DNA of 40,436 nucleotides from Erysipelothrix sp. (GTDB lineage Bacteria; Bacillota_I; Bacilli_A; Erysipelotrichales; Erysipelotrichaceae). Below, piece after piece: positions 26,158 to 34,423 of the stretch. The notes under the pieces are model-generated. The model saw nothing but the letters and a program-made list of their open reading frames with translations. It was not told the DNA's origin and did no database searches. Made by a program: the position numbers and the translations under genes. The stretch is taken from NCBI GenBank assembly GCA_012735275.1, contig JAAYHR010000023.1, forward strand, positions 1 to 40,436, in the 5' to 3' direction. Numbering within the stretch: position 1 is the first letter of the stretch; every line of letters begins with the position of its first letter.

Positions 26158-26499
26158 ATGAGTTATACACATTTAAGTGCAGAAGATTTAAAAGCAGTCG
26201 CTGATAGTTTTCCTGATCAAGATAAGCTTGATGACTTAGTTGGCTTATTTAAATTGTTTGGTGATCAAACACGTTTGAGTATATTAATGGCCCTAATGAA
26301 TCGTGAATTATGTGTTCATGATATTTGCAAAACTATTGATGTTTCTCAGTCAGCCGTATCCCATCAACTGCGTAATTTACGTGAAGCAAAATTAGTTAAA
26401 TCACGTCGTGTTGGTAAAGAAATTATTTATTCTTTAGATGATGATCATGTTAAAGAAATTTATTCTGTTGGTCTAACCCATATTTTAGAAGGTAAATAG
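26158..26499 (+). CDS. ArsR/SmtB-family metal-sensing repressor with an alpha-5 metal site
   Basis: A winged-helix transcriptional repressor, 113 residues. The recognition helix lies in VSQSAVSHQLRNLREAKLV (about 62-80). The ELCVHDIC segment (50-57) matches the metal-box region of ArsR/CadC proteins. The C-terminal helix carries D95-x-H97, ten residues, H108-x-x-E111, a complete DxH(x10)Hxx(E/H) alpha-5 site as in the zinc/cobalt sensors SmtB and CzrA. The expected ligand is therefore Zn(II) or Co(II); this is inference. Targets may include itself and possibly the importer starting at 26795. It is followed by a terminator. Confidence 0.88.
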   Translation: MSYTHLSAEDLKAVADSFPDQDKLDDLVGLFKLFGDQTRLSILMALMNRELCVHDICKTIDVSQSAVSHQLRNLREAKLVKSRRVGKEIIYSLDDDHVKEIYSVGLTHILEGK

Positions 26500-26504
26500 T
26501 TATT

Positions 26505-26532
26505 AAAGTCTTGTTAATGCAAGGCTTTTTTT
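26505..26532 (+). terminator. Terminator after the ArsR-family gene
   Basis: AAGTCTTG pairs with CAAGGCTT (one G-U pair) around a TTAATG loop, then a T run. It separates arsR transcription from the siderophore importer. Confidence 0.8.
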
Positions 26533-26623
26533 ATTGGGAAACCTTGGCTTTATTTGACTTGTTATTGTGATATTTTATCAAGAAATAACAACTAGTGAAA
26601 ATTTTACTTATTTGATAATAAAG

Positions 26624-26653
26624 ATTGACATATGTCAATTTATTCACTAAACT
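26624..26653 (+). promoter_or_regulatory. Promoter with overlapping 16-bp palindrome for the siderophore importer
   Basis: -35 TTGACA (26625-26630), 17-base spacer, -10 TAAACT (26648-26653). The -35 lies in ATTGACATATGTCAAT (26624-26639), a perfect palindrome and an obvious operator candidate. It does not match the full Fur consensus. A sequence TTTGATAATA just upstream resembles only half of a Fur box. Confidence 0.65.
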
Positions 26654-26659
26654 ATAAAT

Positions 26660-26677
26660 AGTTAGCAGCGGCTAACT
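26660..26677 (+). other. 5' hairpin at the start of the importer mRNA
   Basis: AGTTAGC (26660-26666), loop AGCG, GCTAACT (26671-26677). The predicted transcription start is at about 26660, so the transcript would begin in this stem, two bases before the GGAGG ribosome binding site of the small gene. It may protect the 5' end or tune translation, or act as a further protein-binding site. Confidence 0.45.
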
Positions 26678-26688
26678 CGGAGGTTACT

Positions 26689-26805
26689 ATGTTGATGATG
26701 ATAAATAACTATCCCCATAAGCTAAATCAAGATGATTTTTTCTTTGTTGCTATTGAGTTATTATCAAATTCACTTATAAATGAGGTCGATACTCATGAAG
26801 ATTAA
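26689..26805 (+). CDS. Small 38-residue protein coupled to the importer genes
   Basis: Not recognised. ATG follows a perfect GGAGG (26679-26683) at 5 bases. The product starts MLMMINNYPHKLNQ, continues with an aromatic/aliphatic stretch DDFFFVAIELLSNSLINE and ends in VDTHED. No signal peptide or full membrane helix is evident. Its stop TAA lies inside the permease gene, overlapping the ATG region by 11 bases, so the permease is likely translated by coupling. It could be a small regulatory protein or a leader peptide controlling importer translation. Confidence 0.55.
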   Translation: MLMMINNYPHKLNQDDFFFVAIELLSNSLINEVDTHED

Positions 26806-27751
26806 TCTAAAATATATTGTCCTAATAATTGTATTAGCATTTATTTCCTTAAGTATTGGCAATATGGAATTTTCATGGATTGATCTGATTAATCTGGATT
26901 CATCAGCTATTAATGTCTTTATTACCAGTCGTTTCCCGCGATTAGTAGCAGTATTGCTCACTGGTATCGGACTTAGTATAAGTGGGCTTATCTTACAACA
27001 GCTAGTAAGAAATAAGTTTGTCTCGCCGTCTACAACCGCTACGGCAAACTCAGCACGCTTAGGTATTATGGTTTCTCTAGTACTACTTCCACAGTTAACA
27101 ACAGTCACAAGATCGCTCTTCGCTTTTGCATTTGCACTGGCTGGAACGGGCTTGTTTGTTTGGATGATACAAAGAATTAAGTTGAAAGATGTTATTTTTA
27201 CTCCCCTAATCGGAATGATGTTGGGAACAGTGATTGACTCCATCACAACATTCTTAGCCTTACATTTTGATGTATTACAAGTCTTAAATGGCTATATGAT
27301 TGGTAGTTTTACACTGACAATCAAAGGTCGTTATGAGTTATTATATTTACTTATCCCAGTTATATTAATTACTTATGCTTATGCTCGCTATTTCAATATT
27401 GCGGCCTTAGGCGAGGACTATGCTTCAAACTTAGGTTTGAATTATAAGAAAATTCTAGTGGTCGGGATTATGATTGTTTCACTTAATAGTGCAGTAATCA
27501 TTTCAACAATTGGCAATATAGCCTTTGTTGGATTAATAATCCCTAACCTTGTATCGATTCGCTATGGTGATAAAATTGATTCAACTATAACGATTACAGC
27601 TCTCATGGGAAGTATCTTCTTATTGGCAGCTGATATCATATCTAGATTAATTATTTATCCTTATGAAATTCCAATTTCATTAACTGTTGGTGTTATTGGG
27701 TCAATCATATTCTTAATATTAATATTAAGGAGAAATAAAAATGAAAAATAA
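26795..27751 (+). CDS. Iron-siderophore ABC transporter permease (FecCD family, YclN-like)
   Basis: An integral membrane protein with about nine or ten hydrophobic helices; the family forms the channel for ferric-siderophore, haem or B12 import. Recognisable parts are RFPRLVAVLLTGIGLSISG near the N-terminus, the G-E-D-Y-A-x-N-L-G cytoplasmic coupling loop (LGEDYASNLGL), and FVGLIIPNLV. I chose the ATG at 26795, 9 bases after GAGG; an in-frame ATG at 26780 lacks spacing. First of two permeases, overlapping the next gene by 11 bases. Gene order permease-permease-ATPase-binding protein matches Bacillus yclNOPQ. Confidence 0.88.
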   Translation: MKINLKYIVLIIVLAFISLSIGNMEFSWIDLINLDSSAINVFITSRFPRLVAVLLTGIGLSISGLILQQLVRNKFVSPSTTATANSARLGIMVSLVLLPQLTTVTRSLFAFAFALAGTGLFVWMIQRIKLKDVIFTPLIGMMLGTVIDSITTFLALHFDVLQVLNGYMIGSFTLTIKGRYELLYLLIPVILITYAYARYFNIAALGEDYASNLGLNYKKILVVGIMIVSLNSAVIISTIGNIAFVGLIIPNLVSIRYGDKIDSTITITALMGSIFLLAADIISRLIIYPYEIPISLTVGVIGSIIFLILILRRNKNEK

Positions 27752-28688
27752 AACTAGATATAATTTATTAATAATATTAGTCATAAGTGTTTGTCTCTTG
27801 TATGTCTTTTATGGCATGACTGGAAATAATGCTAGTTATTTATTCTATCGTCGCATACCGCGGCTACTAGCAATGATCCTAGTTTCGATTGCCATAACAA
27901 TTTCGACATCAATCTTTCAAACAATAACTAATAATCGTTTATTAACTCCTGACTTATTAGGTTATAGTCAGTTATATATATTACTACAGACATTTATTGT
28001 CTTTGCTTTTGGTGGACTACATCTTTTAAATATTAATCCATATTTAAATTTTATTGCGATTACTGTCTTAATGGTAATGTTCTCGCTAGTGATATTCTCT
28101 TATATTCTAAAGAAGTCTAATCACTATGTTTATCTCTTATTGTTAATTGGAATGATCTTGAATACACTGTTTTCTAGTATCTCATCATTTCTACAAATGG
28201 TAATTGATCCAAATGAATTCTCAATTATTCAAAACAATGTTATAGCAAGTTTCAATACTATTAATACTAATGTTATTTATATCGCAGTTTTAATTCTCTT
28301 ATTACCACTACCTTGGGTAATAAAAAACTTACATAATTTTGATGTCTTACTACTCGGTGAAGATTATGCCAAAAACTTATCAGTGGATACTAATAAGTTA
28401 TATACATCATCATTAATCGTCATTTCAATATTAACTAGCTTATCAACAGCCTTAGTTGGCCCAATTGTTTTTCTTGGAATGTTAGTTGTCAATATAGCGC
28501 GTATCTGGAGTAAATCTTATCAGCATAAGGAATTTATTAAAACAGCTATATGTTTATCGATTATTTTAACTGTCGGTGGTCAGTTTATAATTGATAAGGT
28601 CTTCAATTTCTCTGTGACTTTGTCGGTACTATTAAACTTGATCGGTGGCCTATACATGATTTATCTAATTATGAAGGAGCGAACATAA
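27741..28688 (+). CDS. Iron-siderophore ABC transporter permease (FecCD family, YclO-like)
   Basis: The second membrane subunit, 315 residues, with many hydrophobic helices, RRIPRLLAMILVSIAITIST near the start, the coupling loop LLGEDYAKNLSVD and GPIVFLGMLVVNIAR. It pairs as a heterodimer with the preceding permease. The start follows AAGGAGA. It overlaps the ATPase gene by one base (TAATG). Confidence 0.88.
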   Translation: MKNKTRYNLLIILVISVCLLYVFYGMTGNNASYLFYRRIPRLLAMILVSIAITISTSIFQTITNNRLLTPDLLGYSQLYILLQTFIVFAFGGLHLLNINPYLNFIAITVLMVMFSLVIFSYILKKSNHYVYLLLLIGMILNTLFSSISSFLQMVIDPNEFSIIQNNVIASFNTINTNVIYIAVLILLLPLPWVIKNLHNFDVLLLGEDYAKNLSVDTNKLYTSSLIVISILTSLSTALVGPIVFLGMLVVNIARIWSKSYQHKEFIKTAICLSIILTVGGQFIIDKVFNFSVTLSVLLNLIGGLYMIYLIMKERT

Positions 28689-29443
28689 TGATAGAAATCA
28701 GGAATCTGAGTAAGTCTTATGGAAGTGTTAAAGTATTAGAAGATATTAATCTTAAAATTAAACCAGGATCTTTTAATATGATAGTTGGCGGTAATGGAGC
28801 GGGAAAATCAACTTTAGTTAATATTGTTGGTAGTCTCTTAGATCGTGACTCGGGTGAAGTTATTTTAGATGGTAAGGAAGTAAGTGAGTATTCACGTGAT
28901 GAGCGTGCCCAAAAGATTTCCATCCTAAAACAAAATAATAATATTGATTTAAATATTACGGTAAGAGATTTAGTAGGCTTTGGTCGTTTCCCTTACAGTA
29001 AAGGTCGTTTAAATAAAACTGATTTAGATATAATAAATCAAAGCTTAGTCTCAACGCAAACGCTTGAGTATGCTGATCGAGAAATATCTAAATTGTCAGG
29101 TGGTCAAAGACAAAGAGCCTTTCTGGCCATGATCCTAGCCCAAAAGACTGATGTAATTTTATTAGATGAACCTTTAGCAAGTCTCGATTTAAAACACTCA
29201 GTAGATTTTGTGAATATGTTAAAGCAGATATGTTTAGAAGAAAATAAAACAGTAGTAATGATTGTCCATGATTTAAATGTTGCGGCGATGGCAGCTGATC
29301 AAATTATTGCCCTCAAGAATGGGAAACTCCAAGCCTGTGGCTGTGTTGATGATGTTATATCAAAAGACTGCCTCTATGATATCTTTGGAGTCGAATTTGA
29401 AGTTGAAAGTTTTGGCGACCGTAACGTTTGCTTTATAAAATAG
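28688..29443 (+). CDS. Iron-siderophore ABC transporter ATPase (FecE/YclP-like)
   Basis: The nucleotide-binding subunit. Walker A GGNGAGKST, the signature LSGGQRQR, Walker B VILLDEPLASLD and the H-loop IVHDLN are all present. 251 residues is normal. The sequence between Q-loop and signature (LVGFGRFPYSKGRLNKTD) is typical for siderophore-class ATPases. Confidence 0.95.
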   Translation: MIEIRNLSKSYGSVKVLEDINLKIKPGSFNMIVGGNGAGKSTLVNIVGSLLDRDSGEVILDGKEVSEYSRDERAQKISILKQNNNIDLNITVRDLVGFGRFPYSKGRLNKTDLDIINQSLVSTQTLEYADREISKLSGGQRQRAFLAMILAQKTDVILLDEPLASLDLKHSVDFVNMLKQICLEENKTVVMIVHDLNVAAMAADQIIALKNGKLQACGCVDDVISKDCLYDIFGVEFEVESFGDRNVCFIK

Positions 29444-29451
29444 GAGAGAAT

Positions 29452-30375
29452 ATGAAAAAAATACTATTATTAATTGCTTTACTAGTTTTAGTTGGCTGTA
29501 GCCCAACAAGCGTTGAAGAAGAAAACACAACAAGTATTCCCATTAAACATGCCCTTGGCGAAACTGATGTAAAAGAAAATCCAGAAAAAGTAGTTATCTT
29601 TGATCTTGGTGTACTAGATATCTTTGATGCCTTAGATATTGAAGTAGCCGGCGTTCCAAAATCAAACTTATCAGCGCGTTTAGAAAAATATAATCATGAT
29701 GATTATGTCAGTGCTGGAACATTGTTTGAACCAGATTACGAAGTCCTAGCAGAAATGGCACCTGATTTAATTATCATATCAGGTCGTGCTGCTGGCGAGT
29801 ATGATGAGTTATCAAAGATTGCTCCAACCATTGCCCTGACAATTGATAATAGTGACTTTATTGGCTCACTAATTAATCGCTTAGAAACGGTTGGAAGTTT
29901 ATATCCAGCTAAAGTTGATTTAATCGAAACTGAAATTTCAAATATTAGCGAAAGTGTTAAAGATATTAAAGCAGAAGTTGAAAAACATGATGAGCAAACG
30001 CTATTTATTTTAACGAACGGTGACTCAATGTCGATTTATGGTCCGGGATCAAGATTTGGAATTGTTTATGATGATCTTGGCTTTAAAGCAATTGATGGTG
30101 TCACTTATGACACTTCAACACATGGTCAACAAATTTCATTTGAGTTTATTGCCCAGTATAATCCAGATAACATTATCGTAATGGATCGTGTTGTAATTAC
30201 TGGTGATCAAGCACCACCTGCCAGTGATCTATTAAATAATGATTTAATTAAAGATGTTAATGCTTTTAAAAACAATAAAGTATTCTATGTTGATCCCCAT
30301 GTTTGGTATGTTGAAACAGGTGGATTAAACTCAACTAAACATATGATAGAAGAAATGGATTCTATCTATAAGTAA
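29452..30375 (+). CDS. Siderophore-binding lipoprotein (YclQ/CeuE/FatB-like)
   Basis: The cell-surface receptor of the importer. The signal peptide ends in LVGC with lipidation at C16. The mature part has the two-lobed periplasmic-binding type III fold: HALGETDVKENPEKVVIFD, EPDYEVLAEMAPDLIIISGR, KIAPTIALTID and YGPGSRFGIVYDDLGFK. This pattern is closest in my recognition to YclQ (petrobactin) and CeuE, which bind catecholate ferric complexes. The ATG at 29452 follows AGGAGAG; a TTG at 29428 would overlap the ATPase gene. No siderophore biosynthesis genes are in the window, so use of foreign siderophores is likely. Confidence 0.9.
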   Translation: MKKILLLIALLVLVGCSPTSVEEENTTSIPIKHALGETDVKENPEKVVIFDLGVLDIFDALDIEVAGVPKSNLSARLEKYNHDDYVSAGTLFEPDYEVLAEMAPDLIIISGRAAGEYDELSKIAPTIALTIDNSDFIGSLINRLETVGSLYPAKVDLIETEISNISESVKDIKAEVEKHDEQTLFILTNGDSMSIYGPGSRFGIVYDDLGFKAIDGVTYDTSTHGQQISFEFIAQYNPDNIIVMDRVVITGDQAPPASDLLNNDLIKDVNAFKNNKVFYVDPHVWYVETGGLNSTKHMIEEMDSIYK

Positions 30376-30452: not shown

Positions 30453-30492
30453 TTGGCTTGTTATTATTATTCCAGTGAAGAGGAGAATGAAA

Positions 30493-31350
30493 ATGAAGAA
30501 AATATTATCAGTATTACTTGTAAGTTTATTATTAGTTGCTTGTGGATCATCATCGAAAGAATTTGACCAAGGCAAATCAATTAGTTTAGTATCACGTGAA
30601 GATGGTTCAGGTACTCGTGGAGCATTCGTAGAATTATTAAAAATCGAAGAAAAAGATGCCGATGGTAACAAGAAAGATTTAACAAGCCCAGAAGCAATCA
30701 TTGCTAATAAAACAGATGTTATGTTATCAAATATCGCAAACGATATGTATGCAATTGGATACTTATCATTAGGTTCATTAAATGACACAATTAAAGCTTT
30801 AGAAATTGATGGTGTTGTTCCAAGTGTTGAGAATATTGTTTCAGGTGACTACAAAGTAGCCCGTCCATTCAATATTGCTAAATCATCAAGCGATCATGAA
30901 CTAACAAATGATTTTGTTGGTTACATCTTATCTAAAGATGGACAAAAAGTTGTTGAAAATACAGGCTACATTGCAATTGAGAGTGACTACAATTATGAGT
31001 CAAAAGCTTTAAGTGGAAAAGTTGTTGTAGCTGGATCATCAAGTGTAAGTCCAGTTATGGAAAAATTAGCTGAAGCTTATAAAGCAATTAATGCTAATGC
31101 CGAAATTGAAATCCAAACATCTGACTCAACAGCTGGTGTTCAAGCAGCAATTGATGCTACAGCAAACATTGGTATGGCAAGTCGTGATTTAAAAGATGAA
31201 GAAAAAGCAGTGTTAGAACCAATTGTTATTGCAATTGATGGAATCGTCGTAGTCGTTAACAACGAAAACCCAGTAAAAGGATTATCTAGTGATACAGTAA
31301 AAGATATATTCACGGGCACAATTAGCTCATGGGAAAAATTAGGTGAGTAG
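30493..31350 (+). CDS. pstS: Phosphate-binding lipoprotein PstS, circularly permuted order
   Basis: The surface receptor of the high-affinity phosphate importer. Signal peptide with lipobox LVAC (C17). Phosphate-binding motifs are all visible but swapped: SREDGSGTRGAF is at 34-45 and AGSSSVSP at 180-187, whereas ordinary PstS has the AGSSSV block first and SREDGSGTR after it. The protein ends in ISSWEKLGE, which in ordinary PstS leads directly into the SREDGSGTR segment. Length 285 equals a single complete domain set, so nothing is missing. Start: the ATG at 30493 is 7 bases after AGGAG; the ATG at 30487 is too close. Overlaps pstC by 8 bases. Confidence 0.9.
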   Translation: MKKILSVLLVSLLLVACGSSSKEFDQGKSISLVSREDGSGTRGAFVELLKIEEKDADGNKKDLTSPEAIIANKTDVMLSNIANDMYAIGYLSLGSLNDTIKALEIDGVVPSVENIVSGDYKVARPFNIAKSSSDHELTNDFVGYILSKDGQKVVENTGYIAIESDYNYESKALSGKVVVAGSSSVSPVMEKLAEAYKAINANAEIEIQTSDSTAGVQAAIDATANIGMASRDLKDEEKAVLEPIVIAIDGIVVVVNNENPVKGLSSDTVKDIFTGTISSWEKLGE

Positions 31351-32227
31351 AATATACAACCACTTATTATCTAACAAAAGGATGCAAGCTATAATGAAGA
31401 TATTCTTCCTTATAGCTGCTTCTTTTTCCCTTATCGCAATCGTTCTAATTTGTGGTTTTCTATTTGCGAACGGATTTCCGGCTATTGCAGAAATAGGATT
31501 TCTAAACTTTATGCTAGGTACCAATTGGCTACCTGGTGACATGCCAGCATCTTATGGAATCTTCCCAATGATTTTGGGTTCCATCTATGTAACATCATAT
31601 GCCATCTTAATTGGTGGACCGCTTGGTGTTGGGACAGCTATCTTCTTAGCCTTTGATTGTCCTAAGAAATTTAAAGCTCCAATCTTATCATTAGTAAATC
31701 TGCTAGCTGGTATTCCATCAGTTGTCTATGGATTCTTTGGTATGGTTTTAATTGTACCTTTAGTCCGCTCTATCTCAGGTAATGGATCATCAATCCTGGC
31801 AGCATCATTACTATTAGCACTGATGATTGTTCCAACAATTATTACAATGTCATATAATGCCATCGTAAATGTTGATGAAGATTTATACAACTCTGCAATT
31901 GCCCTTGGTACGACTCATGAGCGTTCTATTTATAAGGTAATCTTACCATCAGCACGTTCGGGTATTATGGCATCTTTAGTATTAGGTGTTGGTCGTGCAA
32001 TTGGTGAAACAATGGCTGTAATCATGGTTGTAGGTAACCAGGCGATTATTCGTCTACCCTTTGATATCTTTAAAGGGGTAAGAACTTTAACCGGTAATAT
32101 CGTCATTGAGATGGGGTATGCAGCAGGTCTACACCGTCAAGCACTTATTGCAACGGGACTAGTTCTCTTTGTGCTAATTATTATAATTAATATTATTTTT
32201 TCTATGCTTAAGAAGGAGGAAATCTAA
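31343..32227 (+). CDS. pstC: Phosphate ABC transporter permease PstC
   Basis: A membrane subunit of about six helices. The family loop is clear (IALGTTHERSIYKVILPSAR followed by VLGVGRAIGETMAVIMV), with LLAGIPSVVYGFFG upstream. The GTG at 31343 overlaps the pstS end; a GGGAAA lies 9 bases before. A shorter start from an ATG within residues 14-18 is possible. 294 residues is normal. Confidence 0.92.
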   Translation: MSRIYNHLLSNKRMQAIMKIFFLIAASFSLIAIVLICGFLFANGFPAIAEIGFLNFMLGTNWLPGDMPASYGIFPMILGSIYVTSYAILIGGPLGVGTAIFLAFDCPKKFKAPILSLVNLLAGIPSVVYGFFGMVLIVPLVRSISGNGSSILAASLLLALMIVPTIITMSYNAIVNVDEDLYNSAIALGTTHERSIYKVILPSARSGIMASLVLGVGRAIGETMAVIMVVGNQAIIRLPFDIFKGVRTLTGNIVIEMGYAAGLHRQALIATGLVLFVLIIIINIIFSMLKKEEI

Positions 32228-33045
32228 TGCGTGATAAATTATTTAAACTATACACTCATCTTTCAACCTTAATTGTTTTAGGAGCATCGCTCTTCTTAAT
32301 TGCCTATATTCTAATCAATGGTTTACCACACTTAAGTTTAGATCTCTTCTCATTTAAATATACAAGTGAGAACGTATCATTAATGCCAGCTTTAATTACA
32401 ACCTTATATATGGTTGTCTTAACACTCGCACTCGCACTTCCAATTGGACTTGCAACAGCGATCTATTTAGTTGAGTATGCTAAAAAGACAAGTAAGTTTG
32501 CGCGTCTGATGAAATTAGCAAGTGAAACTTTAGTTGGTATTCCATCAATTATTTATGGATTATTTGGATTCCTATTTTTTGTTACATCACTTAATTTATC
32601 ATACTCCTTAATCTCTGGTTCCTTAACTATGGCAATCATGATTCTACCTTTTATTATTCGTGTTAGTCAGGAAGCACTGATTGATGTACCTAAGTCATAT
32701 CGTGAGGCGGCGATTGCAATGGGAGCTAGTAAACTTTATATGATCTTTAAGTTAGTCTTACCATCAGCGGCACCTGGTATTCTCTCAGGAATTATCTTAT
32801 CGATTGGTCGAATTGTCGGTGAGTCTGCAGCATTAATTTATACACTCGGAAGTGTTGCCAAAATACCAGATTCACTGTTCTCATCGGGTCGAACATTATC
32901 AATTCATATGTGGGCATTATCGAGTGAAGGATTCCATACGGATGCAGCTTATGCTACCGCAGTAATCTTATTAATCTTAGTCTTTAGTATGAATGCATTA
33001 TCAGTTTATGCAACCAAGTTACTCTTGAAAGGAAAACAAATATAA
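32227..33045 (+). CDS. pstA: Phosphate ABC transporter permease PstA
   Basis: The partner membrane subunit. [37 protein letters not shown] and [17 protein letters not shown] are PstA signatures. 272 residues. Overlaps pstC and pstB by one base each (TAATG junctions), so stoichiometric coupled translation is expected. Confidence 0.94.
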
Positions 33046-33791
33046 TGAAAATTAAAGTAGAAAATTTAGATTTATGGTATGGAGACTTTCAAGCGCTCCA
33101 TGATGTTTCAATGAATATTGAAGCTAATGAAATTACCGCATTTATTGGACCTTCGGGCTGTGGTAAAACAACTTTTCTAAAATCAATTAACCGTATGAAT
33201 GATTTAATCGACACTTGTCACATTGAAGGTAAGATTTCAATTGAAGGTGAAGATATCTATGCGGTTAAAAGTTTAGAGGAGTTTAGAAAACGTGTTGGTA
33301 TGGTCTTTCAAAAACCTAATCCATTTGCCATGTCAATTTATGATAATGTCGCATTTGGACCAAGAGCACATGGAATTAATAAGAAAGCTGAATTAGATAT
33401 AATAGTAGAGAAAGCTCTTAAAGATGCGGCTATTTGGGATGAGGTTCATGATCGATTACACAAATCTGCTCTATCTTTATCAGGAGGTCAGCAACAAAGA
33501 ATTTGTATTGCCCGTACTTTAGCAATTGAGCCCGAGATTATTTTAATGGATGAGCCAACTAGTGCGCTTGATCCAATCTCAACAGCTAAGATTGAACAAT
33601 TAATAATGGAGTTAAAAGCTAAGTATGCGGTGGTAATTGTAACGCACAACATGCAACAAGCCGCAAGAATATCTGATAAGACAGCTTTCTTCTTAGATGG
33701 AGAATTAGTTGAAATGGGTGTATCTGATGTATTATTTACAAATCCAAAAGATCAAAGAACGGAAGATTATATTACAGGGAGGTTTGGTTAA
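33045..33791 (+). CDS. pstB: Phosphate ABC transporter ATPase PstB
   Basis: The ATPase of the importer. Walker [10 protein letters not shown], signature LSGGQQQR, Walker [14 protein letters not shown] and [13 protein letters not shown] are characteristic of PstB (the MQQAAR block in particular). 248 residues. One-base overlap with phoU. Confidence 0.96.
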
Positions 33792-34423
33792 TGAAAACAG
33801 TCTTAGATAGTCAGTTAATTATACTGAAGAACAATATTTCTGAAATGGCACTATTATGTGAACAAGCTCTAACAAAAGCCATGCGCTCTTTAAGTGAGGG
33901 TGATGTATCACTAGCTAAAGAAATTATTGCTTATGATGAACATATTAATAATATGGAGAAAGAAATTCAATCACTTTGCTATTCGCTGCTTGTGCGTCAG
34001 CATCCAGTTGCATCTGACTTTAGATTTCTATCAGCATCTTTAAAGATTGTAACGGACTTAGAGCGCATCGGTGATTATGCTACTGATATCTCTGAGATAG
34101 TTATTGAGTATAGCCATGAAGACTTTGTCTATCAAAAGCAGTTAGTTAAGATGTGTAAGGATGTTATTATCATGCTGAAAGATGTGATTGAATCCTTAAT
34201 GTCGATGGATGAAACCCTGGCTGATCAAGTAATTAACTATGATGATAATATCGATAATGCACTCTTAAATCTTAAATTACAGTTAGTTAATGATATGATT
34301 AATATTGAAGATTATCATGAGTCATTACTTGATGCCTTTATGATAGCTAAGTATTTTGAAAGATGTGGGGATCGTTGTGTTAATATTGCTAAATCAGTAA
34401 TATTTTTCAAAACTGGTCAATAG
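33791..34423 (+). CDS. phoU: Phosphate-signalling regulator PhoU
   Basis: An all-helical, two-repeat metal-binding protein that links PstSCAB to the PhoR kinase and damps phosphate uptake. Motifs RQHPVASDFRFL, LERIGDYATDISE and KYFERCGDRCVNIAKSV represent the two E(R)xGD metal sites. 210 residues is normal. It ends 8 bases before phoP. Confidence 0.95.
   Translation: MKTVLDSQLIILKNNISEMALLCEQALTKAMRSLSEGDVSLAKEIIAYDEHINNMEKEIQSLCYSLLVRQHPVASDFRFLSASLKIVTDLERIGDYATDISEIVIEYSHEDFVYQKQLVKMCKDVIIMLKDVIESLMSMDETLADQVINYDDNIDNALLNLKLQLVNDMINIEDYHESLLDAFMIAKYFERCGDRCVNIAKSVIFFKTGQ

Follow-up and report, generated by a model that had tools for sequence, protein, structure and literature searches.

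A probable lineage-specific leader ORF at the head of a predicted iron-regulated siderophore-type ABC operon in Erysipelothrix sp.

Background

In Escherichia coli, the small upstream ORF uof is coupled to an iron-related gene, fur, and is regulated by the small RNA RyhB. The locus described here shares with uof-fur a small upstream ORF beside an iron-related gene; regulation by RyhB is a feature of uof-fur. A short upstream ORF coupled to the next gene is likewise the point of likeness to uof-pqsR of Pseudomonas aeruginosa, in which the small RNA PhrS makes the ribosome-binding site of uof accessible (PMC8395346). In contrast, no RNA regulator is known at the present locus, and the downstream gene encodes a permease. 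Coupled overlapping gene pairs of prokaryotes, as treated in a recent review (PMC12548453), resemble the locus in having a short overlap, a Shine-Dalgarno sequence (SD) inside the upstream gene, and weak structure (at the locus, a candidate hairpin) over the downstream start; both a termination-restart model and a hairpin-opening model are described there. However, the upstream partner in the present case is a 38-codon orphan ORF, and its 11-nt overlap is not among the three enriched spacings given there (-4, -1, and -8), although overlaps of this length are frequent here, accounting for 14 of the 132 same-strand gene pairs that overlap in the genome.

The consensus published for DtxR of corynebacteria (PMC1382209) is TTAGGTTAG(G/C)CTAACCTAA, and the locus shares with these DtxR/IdeR operators the palindrome GTTAG...CTAAC, placed in each case where iron-uptake genes have their promoter. 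Here, the half-sites are AGTTAGC, they are spaced by 4 nt, and the site is a predicted one only. A literature search for coupled small ORFs, including any before siderophore permeases, returned nothing that matched by title or by the start of the abstract, which does not in itself establish absence from print. The kind of system is already known; this lineage-specific case is new.

The operon and its leader

The window, i.e., the whole 40,436-nt stretch of DNA that was analyzed, contains a siderophore-type ABC operon made up of two FecCD permeases, an ATPase, and a substrate-binding lipoprotein. The features of the operon and its surroundings are as follows:

26158..26499, + strand: ArsR/SmtB-type regulator gene (113 aa) upstream of the operon; Pfam HTH_5, E=1.8e-17, and NF033788 above cut-off
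26505-26528: terminator-like stem directly after the ArsR-type regulator gene
26625..26653, + strand: predicted promoter TTGACA-17-TAAACT, 10/12 consensus matches
26660..26677, no strand: palindrome AGTTAGC-AGCG-GCTAACT near +1, the predicted operator of a DtxR-family iron repressor
26679..26684, + strand: Shine-Dalgarno sequence GGAGGT of the small ORF, duplex energy -10.2 kcal/mol
26689..26805, + strand: 38-codon small ORF MLMMINNYPHKLNQDDFFFVAIELLSNSLINEVDTHED, predicted leader cistron
26780..26797, + strand: weak hairpin AUGAG-N7-CUCAU, -4.8 kcal/mol, over part of the permease SD (GAGG) and the start codon
26795..27751, + strand: FecCD-family permease 1 (318 aa); PF01032, E=6.8e-63
27741..28688, + strand: FecCD-family permease 2; PF01032, E=1.8e-49; 11-nt overlap with permease 1
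28688..29443, + strand: siderophore-type ABC ATPase; PF00005, E=3.1e-29; top NCBIfam match FecE, under its cut-off
29452..30375, + strand: iron-siderophore substrate-binding lipoprotein; PF01497, E=1.4e-32; top NCBIfam match SstD, under its cut-off

The -35 box sits within a perfect 14-base palindrome, TTGACATATGTCAA (26625-26638), which is absent from the congener and may be due to chance or may be a second operator. The next genes, at 30475-34423, have the look of what we take to be a phosphate ABC operon, with PstS and PstC recognized by eye only; genes of this stretch or just beyond it account for the GGAGG starts at 32227, 33791, and 34432.

The small ORF (117 nt) runs from an ATG at 26689 to a TAA at 26803-26805 and encodes an acidic peptide (pI about 4.3, charge -6.3) with a C-terminus rich in D, E, and H. 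With the permease 1 ATG at 26795, the two genes overlap by 11 nt, as the preliminary description had stated; were an in-frame ATG at 26780, which lacks an SD, the start instead, the overlap would be 26 nt. The same description had also named the GGAGG site the best ribosome-binding site of the operon, and this holds in the predicted duplexes with the anti-SD sequence: the small ORF (-10.2 kcal/mol) has the strongest of the five, with permease 2 (-9.2) a close second, followed by the ATPase (-8.0), the binding protein (-7.3), and permease 1 (-6.3). As in a translationally coupled leader ORF, the small ORF has an SD of its own and lies directly upstream, and its stop falls just inside the downstream gene, at +11. 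It is doubtful that the ORF is below usual annotation limits, as had been thought, since its 117 nt exceed the 90-nt default minimum gene length of Prodigal.

The leader RNA as a whole folds no better than shuffled sequences (z 0.42), and an Rfam search of 26480-26900 yielded no family, the only match being at chance level (14 bits vs a gathering score of 174.8). Locally, the weak hairpin at 26780-26797 is a candidate for an element that would be opened by a terminating ribosome.

Evidence for translation

To judge the start site against the rest of the genome, 587.5 kb in 41 pieces, including the window, were sampled, with genes taken as ORFs of at least 90 codons from a greedy ORF call rather than from an annotation. 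In this sample, 112 of 137 GGAGG-N4-9-ATG sites begin genes. The remaining sites comprise 16 that are intergenic with shorter ORFs, the small ORF among them, as well as 4 antisense sites, 4 within genes in another frame, and 1 late in frame. ORFs of 23 codons or fewer are found at 4 of the 16 intergenic sites; genes among the 16 that presumably, as judged by eye, can be named are those of an HPr-like protein, of the ribosomal proteins S21, L32, and L34, and of a ferredoxin, along with genes truncated at the edge of a contig.

A random frame of non-coding base composition would stay open for 37 more codons with a probability of about 0.04. Ranked against 558 real gene starts, the small ORF has a codon score at the 27th percentile. 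A score this high is attained by 0.9% of random stop-free sequences of matched composition and by 0.8% of base shuffles, and no stop-free window in frames +1 (n=193), +2 (118), -1 (156), and -2 (308) of real genes attains it. However, in antisense frame -3 it is attained by 29% of the 977 windows, and between genes by 26% of the 415 stop-free windows, small genes being included in this last set; consequently, codon usage is evidence for translation but not proof of it. Given that most GGAGG-ATG sites begin genes and that the codon usage is gene-like, the small ORF is probably translated.

Conservation of the small ORF

The 38-aa peptide was used in a tblastn search of the window's genome and 59 relatives. 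No homologue was found in the relatives; the search gave 12 chance-like matches in 10 other genomes (E 0.06-0.8), and these were rejected because each of the 12 loci, once translated, turned out to be a stop-interrupted frame, a long gene read on the wrong strand or in the wrong frame, or a segment of an unrelated protein. None of the 12 loci is recognizably upstream of a FecCD-type permease. Pfam and NCBIfam contain no match to the peptide even at E=10, and a match to a PHROG of unknown function (E=0.049) was taken as chance.

Leaders were then compared at 110 permease loci, 30 from the family (window included) and 80 from named, mostly Bacillota, genomes. With the exclusion of 4 loci whose match starts beyond residue 31 and of 1 for which no start was found, 105 were examined for an SD-led ORF of at least 12 codons near the permease start. 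Such an ORF occurs at 7 loci: the window, L018, L019, and L020, plus L046, L051, and L076, where it has 14-23 codons. By these criteria, none is present at the other 98, the congener G002 included; instead, the named Bacilli mostly have, ahead of the permease, GATAATGATTATC sequences that we take to resemble a Fur box. The preliminary description had proposed a search for the small gene upstream of YclN-type permeases in relatives and had named a lack of conservation as evidence against it, and on this side, conservation, it fails: with no relative in 59 genomes, a congener without the ORF, and 98 of 105 loci without an SD-led ORF, the data lend no support to a conserved small protein family in that position.

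Three of the other loci are similar in layout. At L018 and L019 (genomes G211 and G205, two species of one other genus), a 43-codon GGAGG-led ORF ends 11 nt inside the permease, yet its sequence shows no relation to that of the window's ORF, 939 of 1000 shuffles scoring as well. Between these two species, the DNA of the 43-codon ORF is identical at 125/132 positions and the preceding 60 bases at 58/60. The changed codons are non-synonymous in 5/6 cases in the ORF vs 14/78 in the permease (Fisher p=0.002), so that, on these small numbers, there is no sign of selection on the amino acids of the ORF. At L020 (G208), a 100-codon ABM-family gene (PF03992, E=4.9e-5) overlaps the permease by 11 nt, and the permease has no SD of its own. 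This ABM-family (IsdG-like) gene, located directly before the permease, is intact in L020, and its frame is interrupted in L021 (G201), either by decay or by a sequencing error.

Three genomes of the genus were compared, and no permease was seen in one that is 66% complete; the only congener with the permease, which is 65% identical, is G002. When the DNA of 26600-26800 is compared, G002 matches 26611-26677 at 73%, the match stopping at the last base of the operator, and two other genomes give 35-base matches ahead of the operator. Thus, the promoter and operator are kept in G002, and the small ORF is not. No SD-led ORF lies behind the G002 operator; there is just a 23-codon frame without an SD, ending 10 nt inside the permease, which was left as chance (752/1000 shuffles score as well). 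A 22-codon ORF in G117, likewise lacking an SD and significant similarity (98/1000), was also left as chance. Between the end of the ArsR gene and the iron operator in G002 (L015, 94-780) lie fragments that, named by eye, are like the end of a sugar isomerase and the end of a sugar ABC permease, which suggests gene decay or an assembly join.

The palindrome at the transcription start

The small ORF had been described as preceded by a 5' hairpin. The perfect 7-bp palindrome at 26660-26677 is indeed present, just after the -10 box, but it is better explained as DNA, a predicted DtxR-family iron operator (AGTTAGC-N4-GCTAACT), than as an RNA element. The transcript would, in addition, carry a 7-bp RNA hairpin at its 5' end, which may have a further effect on RNA stability.

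The exact pattern occurs in 30 of 195 family genomes vs 7 of 195 for the pattern written backwards as a control, and in the window, one copy of the 16-base core at no more than one mismatch was found, an exact one, where 0.08 would be expected. Many of the sites in the family follow a -10-like box and stand ahead of feoA, feoB, a gene for a DtxR-type repressor, nrdI, or sod, several of these being confirmed by Pfam; in other words, a GTTAG/CTAAC palindrome at iron-gene promoters recurs in relatives. In addition, the genome encodes two DtxR-family proteins, above the PF01325 cut-off and both with PF02742. Two more copies with one mismatch (L154 and L155; C17 and C20 of the window's genome, G000) lie ahead of the gene for an ABC exporter in which membrane and ATPase domains are fused and ahead of a gene for a lipoate ligase, respectively. 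Against an iron operator, it should be noted that other sites in the family precede genes without an obvious iron role, and that at two mismatches the count in the window's own genome, 10, is not far above the 6 of the backwards control.

Model and alternatives

These results have led to the hypothesis that the small ORF is a leader cistron, specific to the lineage, of a siderophore-type ABC operon under iron control, translationally coupled to the permease and with a peptide that is probably dispensable; we regard this account as reasonably likely. In this model, when iron is plentiful, a DtxR-family repressor bound to 26660-26677 at the transcription start would, judging from the motif, keep the operon shut. 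When iron is scarce, the mRNA would begin near 26660, and ribosomes would load at the strong GGAGG site, translate the 38 codons, and terminate 11 nt within the permease gene. They could then restart at the permease AUG, aided by the internal GAGG, or the weak hairpin over the start would have been opened, and the leader would supply ribosomes steadily to a permease with a mediocre SD. Termination-restart or hairpin opening is the natural reading because the small ORF stops 11 nt inside the permease and because the GAGG of the permease is the weaker site (-6.3 vs -10.2 kcal/mol). The SD, the codon usage, and the usual geometry of the overlap, which at 11 nt is the same as that between permeases 1 and 2, support the earlier view that the leader is built for translation of the peptide first and then of the permease; the coupling itself is what we infer. 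Against a coupled leader, permease 1 has its own SD, and thus coupling may be unneeded. Furthermore, the G002 permease does without such an ORF, the leader RNA shows no excess folding (z 0.42), and the arrangement is missing at 98 of the 105 loci. A broader proposal, that the slot before the YclN-type permease in this low-GC family repeatedly gains unrelated SD-led cistrons ending 11 nt inside it, with the translating rather than the product being selected, is put forward tentatively and seems unlikely.

Other explanations start from the peptide or from chance. The acidic 38-aa product could be a functional lineage-specific microprotein that serves the transporter or iron handling, with coupling setting the dose only. 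Gene-like codon usage with an SD, the charge of -6.3 and the D/E/H-rich C-terminus, and the ABM-family enzyme at the same position in a related operon all fit such a protein. However, it has no homologue in 59 relatives, is missing from the congener, and matches no family, and the same-placed ORF of L018 and L019 changes mostly at non-synonymous positions (5/6 vs 14/78 in the permease, Fisher p=0.002); a microprotein therefore appears quite unlikely. The lack of conservation would also suit an ORF present by chance, at which the GGAGG loads ribosomes accidentally or never and the permease relies on its own SD. About 4% of random frames are open this long, 4 intergenic GGAGG-ATG sites lead ORFs no longer than 23 codons, and 9 such sites are in-gene, antisense, or late in frame. 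Nevertheless, GGAGG-ATG sites are mostly real starts in this genome, and chance would have to produce together an SD-led start, the length, the codon score, a place right after the operator, and a standard overlap, which makes this explanation unlikely.

The ORF might also be what decay has left of a formerly longer gene, for instance one like the ABM-family (IsdG-like) gene that precedes the permease in a related genus. That gene has the same position and 11-nt overlap in G208 (L020; PF03992, E=4.9e-5), and its frame is interrupted at the sibling locus, L021. However, the 38 aa are not similar to the ABM protein (in the alignment on which the ABM reading was rejected, 927 of 1000 shuffles do as well) and have no Pfam match, and no ABM-family gene was found in the genome in a search run without a positive control. 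Descent from such a gene is consequently very improbable.

Implications

The operon can be assigned to a predicted iron-repressor regulon, which the one-mismatch operator copies before the ABC exporter and lipoate ligase genes widen further. If the coupled-leader model is true, one more small, probably missed cistron would be added to the coupled leader ORFs. It would also provide a simple case of one leader slot occupied by different, unrelated ORFs from species to species, in which the effect of translating a leader could be told apart from that of the peptide that is made.
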